A program made the translations under genes and the position numbers. A stretch of DNA of 41,760 nt. Origin: Candidatus Woesebacteria bacterium GW2011_GWB1_39_12 (GTDB lineage Bacteria > Patescibacteriota > Microgenomatia > UBA8517). The stretch lies in NCBI GenBank assembly GCA_000993405.1, contig LBWB01000012.1, positions 101,777 through 143,536 of the forward strand, in the 5' to 3' direction. Positions 22,097-25,004 of the stretch are shown here, one piece after another. Numbering within the stretch: the stretch's first letter is position 1; every line of letters starts with the position of its first letter. A model generated the notes under the pieces. It was given only the letters and a program-made list of their open reading frames with translations. It did no database searches and was not told the origin of the DNA.

Positions 22097-22897
22097 ATGT
22101 CTTCTAAAAACGAACTGAGAGATTTTCTCTTCTTTACAAGAAAAATTGCAAAAAAAGCAGGTCAAATACTTCTTAATGAACGGAATAAAGTAAAAATTGT
22201 TAGGCAAAAGGATATACAGGATTTTACGACAAGTGCAGATATTCTTTCTGAAAGATTTATTATCGATTCAATAGAGAAAAAGTATCCTGAACACGGGATA
22301 TTATCTGAAGAAAAGGGAGAAATAAAAAAAGAGTCCGACTATCGCTGGGTTATAGATCCGTTGGACGGAACCAAAGAATTCACAAGAGGAATACCCTTAT
22401 TTAACGTTTCCATTGCCTTAGAATTCAAATGTGAATTAATTGTTTCTTCTGTTTACCGCCCAATGGATAACTCTTTATACAGCGCAGCAAAAAAGGTCGG
22501 AAGTTTTTTAGGAAATGAAAAAATTAAAGTATCTGAAGTTAATTCATTAGATAAATCTTTTATTTATTGTTATCTTCCTTCCTATCACAGGCAAAAAGAA
22601 AAATACGATTGGGCTTTTAAAATACTTGAAGAGATAGGAAAGCGAGTCTATCGTTTGCGATCTTTATCCGATGAAAATACCGCTCTCTGTTGGCTTGCCC
22701 AAGGGGGAATAGAAGCCTACATAAACTTAAGTAATCCTCCAAAATGGCATGACATTGCACCTGGCTTATTAGTAGCCCAAGAAGCAGAAGCATTAATAAC
22801 TGACTCGAAAGGTAATTCTTTTAGTAAAAATCATTTTGACGGTATTGTGGCCTCAAGCAGTAAAATTCACGATCAAATATTAGATATATTAAAATGA
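22097..22897 (+). CDS. Inositol monophosphatase family phosphatase (CysQ-like)
   Basis: 266 residues with the family's two metal motifs: EEKGE (ILSEEKGEIKK) and IDPLDGTKEFTRGIPLFNVSIAL. The third, WHDIAPGLLVAQEAEA, lies near the C-terminus. Such Mg-dependent, Li-sensitive phosphatases act on inositol phosphates, fructose 1,6-bisphosphate, histidinol phosphate or 3'-phosphoadenosine 5'-phosphate. The Thr-Lys-Glu-Phe after DPLDG resembles CysQ, but the operon position after a phosphohexomutase would also suit a sugar-phosphate substrate. The substrate is not resolved. Confidence 0.9.
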   Translation: MSSKNELRDFLFFTRKIAKKAGQILLNERNKVKIVRQKDIQDFTTSADILSERFIIDSIEKKYPEHGILSEEKGEIKKESDYRWVIDPLDGTKEFTRGIPLFNVSIALEFKCELIVSSVYRPMDNSLYSAAKKVGSFLGNEKIKVSEVNSLDKSFIYCYLPSYHRQKEKYDWAFKILEEIGKRVYRLRSLSDENTALCWLAQGGIEAYINLSNPPKWHDIAPGLLVAQEAEALITDSKGNSFSKNHFDGIVASSSKIHDQILDILK

Positions 22898-22997: not shown

Positions 22998-23025
22998 TAC
23001 GTTCACCAATTTATGGGCGGTCGTA
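22998..23025 (+). repeat. 28-bp direct repeat, left copy (overlaps the PaaX/Cas2-like promoter)
   Basis: TACGTTCA, ten bases, then GGCGGTCGTA. It recurs at 23799-23826 with 22 of 28 positions identical and with both conserved blocks exact. Here it spans a possible -35 (TTCACC) and abuts a -10-like TATAAA, 19 bases before the ATG at 23045. Confidence 0.8.
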
Positions 23026-23044
23026 TAAAATATATTGAACAGAA

Positions 23045-23797
23045 ATGAGTAGGTTATTAAGATTGAGAGATTACATATTGATAAGTGCTGCGTTCGGAGC
23101 GGAAATCTTCGAAGAAGTCCGGTTGGCTGGTGGTATTTTACCTTCTGCAATGCAGAATATGTACGGTTTTGTTCCGAGTAAATACAAACGTAGAAGTTAT
23201 TTAACAAAAGTTTCGGAAATGTTATCGGTAGGAGATATCAAAAGGGAAGTGGATTCGAAAGGCCGTTCGTATTTAGTATTAAGCTCATCGGGAAAAGAGA
23301 AATTTAGAAGGAAGTTCAGAATTTTTCGAGATAGCCATAAATGGGATGGTTTTTTTATGATTGCTTCTTTTGATATTGCCGAGAAAAAGAGAAAAACAAG
23401 GGATTTTATACGCGGGAAACTCATTGAACTAGGGTTCGGAATGCTACAGGAGTCAGTTTGGGTAAGTCCATACCACTTTGAAGAAGATTTAAAGGAATTA
23501 ACTGAAACTTACAGACTTGAAGACGAAGTTTTGGTGTTAACCGCGAAAAGTCTTTTTTCGGATGATATAACAAAGCAAGCGGAAAAAATATGGAGGTTGG
23601 GGAAAATAAACAAAGGATATAAAGCAGTTATCAAAAATGTTGAGAAAACCAAGGTCTCTAAAAATATGCAAAAATATATAGACAAGGCTTTCGAGATTTA
23701 CACCGAGACGCTATCAAAGGACCCACTATTACCAAAAAAGCTCCTTCCTAAAAATTGGCTAAGAGAAAAAGCATTAAATGCTCTCAATAATATCTAA
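23045..23797 (+). CDS. PaaX-like regulator with a Cas2-like C-terminal domain
   Basis: 250 residues. The N-terminal ~80 residues form a winged-helix-like DNA-binding region (SEMLSVGDIKREVDSKGRSYLVLSSSGKEKF). Residues ~98-180 match the ferredoxin-like fold shared by PaaX C-terminal domains and Cas2: WDGFFMIASFDIAEKKRKTRDFIRGKLIELGFGMLQESVW, including the Asp after the first strand and the GF-x-x-LQ-x-SVW signature. A helical tail follows. No cas1, array or phenylacetate genes are present, so a CRISPR role is not supported. Both sides of the gene carry the same 28-bp repeat, suggesting self-regulation or mobility. Confidence 0.8.
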   Translation: MSRLLRLRDYILISAAFGAEIFEEVRLAGGILPSAMQNMYGFVPSKYKRRSYLTKVSEMLSVGDIKREVDSKGRSYLVLSSSGKEKFRRKFRIFRDSHKWDGFFMIASFDIAEKKRKTRDFIRGKLIELGFGMLQESVWVSPYHFEEDLKELTETYRLEDEVLVLTAKSLFSDDITKQAEKIWRLGKINKGYKAVIKNVEKTKVSKNMQKYIDKAFEIYTETLSKDPLLPKKLLPKNWLREKALNALNNI

Positions 23798-23798
23798 A

Positions 23799-23826
23799 TA
23801 CGTTCATTAATATTAAGGCGGTCGTA
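23799..23826 (+). repeat. 28-bp direct repeat, right copy
   Basis: This is the second copy of TACGTTCA-N10-GGCGGTCGTA. It begins one base after the stop codon of the PaaX/Cas2-like gene, 801 bases from the left copy and in the same orientation. The inner ten bases differ, so selection appears to hold the two outer blocks. Confidence 0.8.
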
Positions 23827-23845
23827 GTAATAAAAGTGATCGATC

Positions 23846-23942: not shown

Positions 23943-25004
23943 ATGTCCACAACCAATATTTCACTTGAGGAAAAATATAAACTTGTCGCCCACACTATAA
24001 GAGCCTATCCACTTCAGCTCAAACAAGCATGGGAAGAGATTAATACTTTATTTATTCCCGAAGACTATAAAAATGTCAGTAACGTAGTCGTCAGCGGAAT
24101 GGGCGGAAGCGCACTCGGCGCAAGAATCATTGACTCCTATATTGTAGATAAAATAAGGCTTCCCATTGAGATCTATACCGAATACCATCTTCCGAATTAT
24201 GTAAATAAAAACACGCTAGTCATATCCTATTCATATTCAGGCAACACCGAAGAAACAATTAACGCCACCTACGAGGCGCTTCAAAGAAATGCCAAAATCT
24301 TTTGCGTAACAACCGGAGGAAAATTATCAGAGATAGCTGAAAAAGAAAATATCCCCGCCTACGTCTTTAATCCCATAAACAATCCTTCCAAAGAGCCTCG
24401 AATGTCATTGGGTTATTCAATAGGCACATATTTTTCGTTATTCCACAAATTAGGTTTTATCTCGCTTGATAGGGACGATATTGATACCGCCATTAACTCA
24501 ATGTACGAATTTCTCACTGAATTCCACGAAAATATTGATACAGATAAAAATTTAGCCTATAAACTGGCCAGTTCTCTTAAAAATTATATTCCTGTAATAA
24601 TTACCTCGGAGCATTTATACGGAATATCTCACGCAATTAAAAATCAAATAAACGAAAATTCTAAAACTTTTTCGATTCTTTTTGATATTCCCGAACTTAA
24701 TCATCATTTACTGGAAGGCTTAAGAAACCCCGATAAAATTAAAAAGGATTTTAAATTTCTTTTTTTTAATTCGAGTAAATATTCGGAAAAAATACAAAAA
24801 AGATATAAGATTACCGCAGAAGTAGTTGAAAAAAACGGCTTTGAATACCTTATTTATAACCCGCGTTCAGATACCAAACTCAAAGAGTTATTTGAAATAT
24901 TTATTCTAGGATCTTTCATTTCATATTACTTGGCAAAATTCTATCAAGTGGACCCATTAAAAATTCCCTGGGTTGATTATTTCAAAGAAAGGTTGTCTAA
25001 ATAA
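23943..25004 (+). CDS. Bifunctional phosphoglucose/phosphomannose isomerase
   Basis: 353 residues built of two sugar-isomerase (SIS) domains. The first shows VVVSGMGGSALGARIIDSYI and then VISYSYSGNTEETINATYEA, the Ser/Thr-rich phosphate loop. The second includes LDRDDIDTAI and later the ELNHHLLEGLRNP segment with the conserved catalytic-type Glu and His. This short family interconverts fructose 6-phosphate with glucose 6-phosphate or mannose 6-phosphate and replaces classic Pgi. It belongs functionally with the phosphomannomutase upstream, although the PaaX-like gene stands between them. Confidence 0.92.
   Translation: MSTTNISLEEKYKLVAHTIRAYPLQLKQAWEEINTLFIPEDYKNVSNVVVSGMGGSALGARIIDSYIVDKIRLPIEIYTEYHLPNYVNKNTLVISYSYSGNTEETINATYEALQRNAKIFCVTTGGKLSEIAEKENIPAYVFNPINNPSKEPRMSLGYSIGTYFSLFHKLGFISLDRDDIDTAINSMYEFLTEFHENIDTDKNLAYKLASSLKNYIPVIITSEHLYGISHAIKNQINENSKTFSILFDIPELNHHLLEGLRNPDKIKKDFKFLFFNSSKYSEKIQKRYKITAEVVEKNGFEYLIYNPRSDTKLKELFEIFILGSFISYYLAKFYQVDPLKIPWVDYFKERLSK

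Follow-up and report, generated by a model that had tools for sequence, protein, structure and literature searches.

A PaaX/Cas2-like gene between matching palindromic sites in Patescibacteria: a candidate self-bracketed cassette

Two palindromic sites around a PaaX-like gene

PaaX proteins are catabolic repressors. In the DNA analyzed here (the window, a stretch of 41,760 nucleotides from a Candidatus Woesebacteria genome), the gene of a PaaX relative with a Cas2-like domain lies between two copies of one repeat, which raises the question of whether the protein binds both copies or whether gene and repeats make up a minimal mobile cassette, the two options offered by the initial annotation. 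The repeat, TACGTTCA-N10-GGCGGTCGTA, is matched perfectly at 22998–23025 and again at 23799–23826, in both cases on the forward strand and at a spacing of 801 bases, and two matches at three or fewer mismatches were found in none of 100 shuffled controls. The annotated distances also hold: the ATG at 23045 is 47 bases from the first base of the left copy, and the right copy begins one base past the TAA stop codon (23795–23797). No third copy (three or fewer mismatches) was found in the window or elsewhere in the genome, which spans 1.51 Mb and is 99% complete, so that in this genome the repeat does not occur without the gene. A search of the window against Rfam gave no match, and a known RNA or CRISPR repeat was rejected as the identity of the repeat on this basis.

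Over their whole length the two copies are identical at 22 of 28 bases, and the two conserved blocks make up the core and one arm of a palindromic site that extends over 43 bp. The left terminal site (22998–23040, no strand assigned) includes the first repeat copy and has arms GTTCA (23001–23005) and TGAAC (23036–23040), exactly symmetrical about the core CGGTCG (23018–23023) at 15.5–19.5 bases from the center; the right terminal site (23799–23841, likewise unstranded) includes the second copy, with the core CGGTCG at 23819–23824 and arms GTTCA (23802–23806) and TGATC (23837–23841) at the same distances from the center. A weak promoter-like match (TTCACC-18-TAAAAT, 23002–23031, forward strand) lies within the left site and overlaps the left copy, which the initial annotation had placed over the likely promoter; the region contains no more such matches than chance would give. 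The E. coli PaaX site is given as TGATTC(N27)GAATCA in a review (PMC9493321), where PaaX is also described as repressing its own promoter. The arms of that site lie 14–19 bases from its center, hence the arm geometry agrees with that of the window's site, and the predicted sites have the form expected of a PaaX-type palindromic operator, with arms ~27 bases apart over the gene's own promoter.

The gene itself (23045–23797, forward strand) encodes 250 amino acids, with a winged helix at residues ~36–90, a Cas2-like domain at 103–171 that carries an aspartate at position 110 (Asp110, or D110), and a C-terminal helical part. Its product belongs to the PaaX family, as annotated, since both Pfam domains score above their curated cut-offs (PaaX_M, PF20803, 5.7e-21, 74.9 bits vs. 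24; PaaX_C, PF08223, 7.9e-6, 26.6 bits vs. 22). It is not the phenylacetate repressor proper by the equivalog model TIGR02277 (77.9 vs. 264.55 bits), there are no paa genes within ~5 kb on either side, and both Cas2 profiles fall short of their cut-offs (Pfam 21.1 vs. 23.8; NCBIfam 23.2 vs. 24.5). In Pfam, no recombinase or transposase domain was found in the protein, and Y1_Tnp was not among its matches up to an E-value of 1. The AlphaFold2 model (mean pLDDT 84.6, pTM 0.77, residues 20–37 poor) resembles E. coli PaaX (PDB 8a39; Z 12.7, rmsd 7.2 over 230 residues) and Rv0674 (PDB 3kfw; Z 11.2, rmsd 5.7 over 209), and residues 103–171 superpose on Cas2 (8ia4; Z 9.2, rmsd 1.4 over 66) and VapD (3ui3; Z 7.3). 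No other family stood out among the structural matches listed by VIA-align beside PaaX, Cas2/VapD and general winged-helix folds, a result that excludes nothing.

Paired sites across the family

The window's gene is the single family member in its own genome, and its protein found matches in 34 of 115 relatives (E-value 1e-5), 119 of the 373 genomes in its class (1e-10) and 97 of 379 genomes of the phylum (1e-9). For these homologues, the region upstream of each gene was compared with its own downstream region, the control being one gene's upstream region paired with the downstream region of another gene. With a first score, 50 of 105 class genes exceeded the 99% control level and 45 the 99.9% level (one of 106 was dropped for a flank shorter than 150 bases). 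A second, centre-based score, which also rewards palindromes, returned pairs in 46 of 60 D110 genes, in none of the 36 with glutamate (E110) and in three of nine short proteins unaligned at this position. In a second set, drawn mostly from other classes and short forms, 23 of 44 genes were bracketed. Across Patescibacteria, 182 distinct family genes were scored, after removal of near-identical genes and of those lacking space for the scoring window, and 97 of them have paired matching sites; under the same score, the other genes located at these loci gave five of 377. The bracketing arrangement is a property of the family, and the initial annotation's suggestion to look for the repeat near homologues has its answer in these 97 genes. 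Each bracketed gene has its own site sequence, one site at the gene start and one at the 3′ end, the latter within the gene in seven cases.

Site build was derived from 52 pairs (49 above the cut-off plus L074, L072 and L064 just below it, added by eye), in which the palindrome is strongest 1–4 positions from the center and again at 11–20. The commonest cores among the 104 sites are CGGCCG (31), CGATCG (22), CGGTCG or CGACCG (21), CACGTG (11) and CTATAG (4). Left centers are mostly found 16–60 bases upstream of the start codon and right centers, for the most part, from −18 to +49 relative to the stop, except in the seven genes where the right center lies inside the ORF, 145–205 bases ahead of the stop. 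For the 45 end-type pairs, spacing tracks gene length (r 0.88). Orientation by the first score was direct in 31 cases and inverted in 19, a distinction of little weight for palindromes. The gene downstream of a bracketed gene (n = 50) is convergent in 24 cases and co-directional in 25, and we rejected a role of the right site as a mere promoter of the neighbor because of these 24 convergent genes. Helical phasing between paired sites, which would have favored a tight loop, was not found in the 52 pairs.

Both sites of a pair diverge together among orthologues. Two orthologues, ~70% alike in DNA and located between the same two tRNA genes, have TATACGCGGTCGCGT at both gene ends in one genome (G289) and CCCACGATCGTAG at one end and CCACGGTCGTTGG at the other in the second (G397). 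Likewise, in three g385 genomes with the gene at one locus, both sites change jointly between L294 and L295/L296. Orthologues that alter both sites together argue for one protein reading both.

Bracketing also goes along with Asp110, which lies where the first strand of the Cas2-like domain ends. In the first set this residue is aspartate in all 45 aligned bracketed proteins, and the 51 unbracketed ones comprise 36 with glutamate and 15 with aspartate. Overall, 97 of the 133 D110 genes are bracketed and 36 are not, as opposed to none of the 45 genes with another residue (36 E, 4 N, 3 S, one H, one Q; four of 182 genes with a gap at position 110 left out). E. coli PaaX and Rv0674 are without this aspartate (phmmer alignment). 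Fisher tests of D110 against bracketing gave 1.9e-15 for the first set and 8.0e-5 for an independent set; these values overstate the link because residue 110 changes just six times on the tree (bracketing changes 26 times), so that relatedness accounts for part of the association, and a test on independent pairs could not reach significance with so few changes. One single-copy clade (family f8, loci L142–L200) combines E110 and H135 with a fixed locus, has no second site, and carries an arm pair, CGTCTGTTA and GACGGACGAA, across the start codon, resembling a single operator. From its sequences, it looks like a settled regulator.

A third copy of the site within the same locus was seen in seven of the 97 bracketed cases. 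At L192, a 260-aa gene with no Pfam match and the PaaX-like gene follow one another, with a site before, between and after them, the copies being alike at 44–45 of 45 bases; the extra interval holds HicB and HicA at L302, and an RHH gene with a YafQ-like gene (the latter under its cut-off) at L279. The other four third copies (L071, L052, L082, L295) come without clear cargo, the first of them inside an upstream ORF, the second behind a long downstream ORF, and the last two close to the pair. Elsewhere the sites are also dispersed. One genome (G338) has five dispersed 40-bp palindromes of one type, one of them in a convergent gap, and similar sites at its own family gene; another (G096) has, besides its two bracketing copies, two more, of which one lies in a convergent gap and the other within an ORF. 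In these two genomes, the proposal thus withstands only in part the refuting condition set by the initial annotation (repeats all over the genome without the gene), and the private pair seen in the window's genome is not the sole pattern. The G338 palindromes (C23:11316, C30:1438, C71:2571, C71:9942 and C71:13865, two of them with long identical flanks) are reminiscent of REP-like repeats, and the ORF copy in G096 (C27:13784–13817, L261) is a full cassette palindrome within a long ORF, Mur ligase-like by eye.

Matches to competence genes (comEA, comEC, dprA or comM, queries picked after these neighbors had been seen) were present in the fetched locus for 14 of 43 gene rows. Loci with such neighbors are L052, L055, L056, L057, L060, L067, L068, L070, L071, L076, L085, L089 and L090, and at L052 the right site overlies the start of comEC. 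In L060, when the locus is read in the orientation of paaX, a 259-aa ORF unrelated to the family lies close to the start, between near-identical 46-base repeats of a different type (AATATCCAATATACAATTGCC).

Insertion and scatter of the bracketed genes

In the window, the gene is located between an inositol monophosphatase (IMPase) family gene (22097–22897, forward strand) and a phosphoglucose/phosphomannose isomerase gene (23943–25004, forward strand), which form the left and right borders of the proposed insertion. The isomerase found matches in 42 of 50 family genomes, its own genome counted. None of the 29 other loci read in the same family (f1) has a PaaX-like gene before the isomerase, which supports, at the level of genes, the annotated insertion into a sugar-phosphate gene group. 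An IMPase gene stands immediately upstream of the isomerase in three of these 29 loci (G016, G009 and G017), so that the empty arrangement anticipated between the two genes was recovered at gene level, but a base-exact empty site relative to relatives was not found at this locus, the intergenic DNA being too diverged for an exact junction. Compared to its relatives, the window's gene thus appears to be an insertion between the IMPase and isomerase genes.

Two relatives have a Y1-transposase-like gene in the same gap, G018 (L242:9453–10124; isomerase 83% identical) and G015 (L243:5431–6102), of which the G018 gene is confirmed by Pfam (Y1_Tnp, 3.6e-6). Their IMPases are only about one third identical to the window's and are maybe not strict orthologues for this reason. 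The G018 gene is flanked by direct repeats of ~30 bases around CTCGGAGA-TGA-TAGCTTGCA.

At the scale of the family, bracketed genes are scattered and most unbracketed ones stay at fixed loci. The comparison covered homologues with 50–70% identity whose genomes differ but belong to a single taxonomic family, with up to eight flanking genes each. Bracketed genes had a flanking gene in common in one of 31 comparisons, and unbracketed genes, a set dominated by f8, in 344 of 457. In G375, a 1.85-kb stretch with a bracketed gene and a neighboring gene is missing from all five genomes of the same genus, its far boundary well beyond the site, and in G249 the tRNA genes that flank the family gene in G289 sit 10 bases apart. 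Within genus g429, one copy's DNA has matches at several places in most of the eight genomes; 13 further copies that we read all have the aspartate, 11 of them have matching palindromes at both ends (by eye), and nearly every one has a private site sequence. Around one g429 unit, the flanks of relatives are syntenic, with other DNA in its place, and homology stops where coding stops.

No exact junction was obtained for the g429 unit against its relatives, and no convincing ORF rejoined across a unit was found: the seven protein alignments across the joined junction were either hits within the gene's own family next to in-ORF sites or ORFs of the same locus, whereas the two DNA alignments were self matches in L279 and L251, attributed to repeated sequence around the sites. 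Target-site duplication outside the terminal sites was not detected either (longest shared word 5.23 vs. 4.96 in control pairings, for 52 units with edges uncertain by a few bases). A phage or plasmid home of the family was rejected, given no phage match and eight plasmid records with matches, all partial and in actinobacteria.

At the position where G731 carries a cassette, G623 has a short stretch (L319:400–600), perhaps a miniature element, in which CCAGCACTATTGT and ACAATAGTGCTGG form an inverted repeat. In G595 (L296:439–1065), which is ~95% identical to L295 (G559), an extra gene, alpha/beta-hydrolase-like by eye, lies between CACCGATTGGGTGCGGGGCA repeats and is possibly a recent insertion of another kind.

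Cassette, mobile element or accessory regulator

Building on what can be read from the DNA itself (the paired sites, their palindromic build and co-divergence, the D110 link, the scatter, and an insertion seen by comparison with relatives), we favor, with moderate confidence, a reading of unit 22998–23841 as a gene cassette that is self-bracketed, regulates its own expression and moves as a whole. The PaaX/Cas2-like protein would very probably bind both terminal palindromes, the step that we hold most likely, with its winged helices gripping the outer arms and a Cas2-like dimer placed on the CG-NN-CG core. At the left site, binding would cover the gene's own promoter and lead to autorepression, by analogy with E. 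coli PaaX (PMC9493321). Bridging from left to right site may close the gene into a loop insulated from its neighbors, and the gene with its two sites would relocate as one unit; we infer binding, bridging, repression and movement alike. Scatter, copy number and arrays support movement as a unit, scatter by itself being possibly ordinary horizontal transfer; a right site that tracks the gene end regardless of neighbors fits bridging or insulation as well as the terminal site of a cassette. Second sites within ORFs fit bridging or insulation only, and the persistence of paired sites where the gene stays at one locus (lineages including g385) speaks against a cassette. The initial annotation is supported in part: the 97 bracketed genes of 182 and the insertion agree with it, and the lack of target-site duplication, of an exact empty site and of gene-end position at the seven in-ORF sites counts against its mobile half. 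A role of the protein itself in driving the movement is no more than possible.

Several known systems share parts of this arrangement. PaaX regulators (E. coli PaaX, Rv0674) have the same domain order and fold, PaaX_M and PaaX_C, and comparable arm geometry with the site over their own promoter. The branch that includes the window's gene differs from them in its Cas2-type Asp110, in a second matching site at the gene end with a strongly palindromic CG-NN-CG core, and in its many divergent copies with private sites, the window's gene having no adjoining paa genes. CRISPR Cas2 and VapD share the ferredoxin-like domain (103–171) with an aspartate after the first strand, whereas the window protein has a fused winged helix and scores below the Pfam Cas2 cut-off, and neither cas1 nor CRISPR arrays were seen in the neighborhood of its gene. 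IS200/IS605 and REP-associated Y1 transposases are likewise single genes between palindromic sites, with dispersed solo palindromes as in G338 and G096 and with an insertion spot common to the window's gene and the Y1-like gene of relatives; in contrast, the window protein has no Y1_Tnp, and the sites of its family are full palindromes with arms and core, which we read as double-stranded sites. The units differ from a classical DDE-type transposon in showing no target-site duplication. Integron gene cassettes similarly place genes, including toxin-antitoxin pairs, between copies of one palindromic site type, but here the bracketed gene has its own promoter and private site, and arrays were found at three loci only. 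A literature search (full text, with most subscription journals outside it) found no work on PaaX together with CPR/Patescibacteria, Cas2 or palindromic transposable elements. What emerges is a large, phylum-wide PaaX branch in very small genomes that has kept the Cas2-type aspartate and places its gene between self-matching palindromes.

A DNA-cutting mobile element, in which the Cas2-like domain with D110 would cut or join at the cores and so excise and insert its own gene along with same-site cargo, overlaps the cassette reading and further makes the protein itself the agent of movement. We regard it as a tentative alternative: D110 in all 97 bracketed genes and bracketing in none of the 45 without it, the scatter and copy number, the same-site arrays with toxin-antitoxin pairs, the close structural match to Cas2 (Z 9.2, rmsd 1.4) and the Y1-transposase-like gene at the same spot in two relatives all point towards it, but the protein resembles no known recombinase in fold or motif, neither junctions nor circles nor duplications were seen, the in-ORF sites do not fit, and D110 changes on the tree are too few for significance. 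Moreover, Cas2 alone is not known to integrate DNA without Cas1. Extended to the phylum, it would describe a single-gene mobile element common across Patescibacteria, whose Cas2 aspartate acts on its own palindromes to move the gene with or without same-site cargo, and which becomes a fixed regulator, often beside competence genes, upon losing aspartate and second site, a scenario that we consider somewhat unlikely. Should the protein indeed move its own gene, DNA mobility beyond CRISPR would be added to the roles of Cas2-like proteins, and one could follow residue by residue how a mobile gene turned into a fixed regulator.

It is also conceivable, if somewhat unlikely, that the gene encodes an accessory transcription factor of the ordinary kind that has two operators. 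The gene-end site would then serve only for looping or as a roadblock, the scatter would reflect ordinary horizontal transfer and gene loss, and the sites would travel along merely as something on which the gene depends. PaaX relatives are repressors, and the site geometry, the second site inside the ORF of seven genes, the pairs retained at fixed loci, the right sites that precede a co-directional gene such as comEC and the additional sites in G338 and G096 agree with such a factor, as does the autorepression of E. coli PaaX (PMC9493321). Yet the position of the right site goes with the gene end, not with a constant spacing or the promoter of the neighbor, the extra sites include some in convergent gaps and within an ORF, the Cas2 aspartate lost in classical PaaX is retained by all bracketed genes, and the window's genome, with no further sites, has no regulon. 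Even a protein that does not move its gene would be an unusual regulator, marking both gene ends, and the dozens of private specificities in the family could be put to use as orthogonal DNA binders.

Lastly, a chance repeat or the remnant of a local duplication, to which the 22 of 28 shared bases and the place of the window's pair among the weaker ones (score 27 vs. a 99% control level of 21.4) might have pointed, has practically no probability left and is refuted by the shuffled controls (0 of 100) and by the same arrangement at 97 of 182 family genes vs. 5 of 377 controls.
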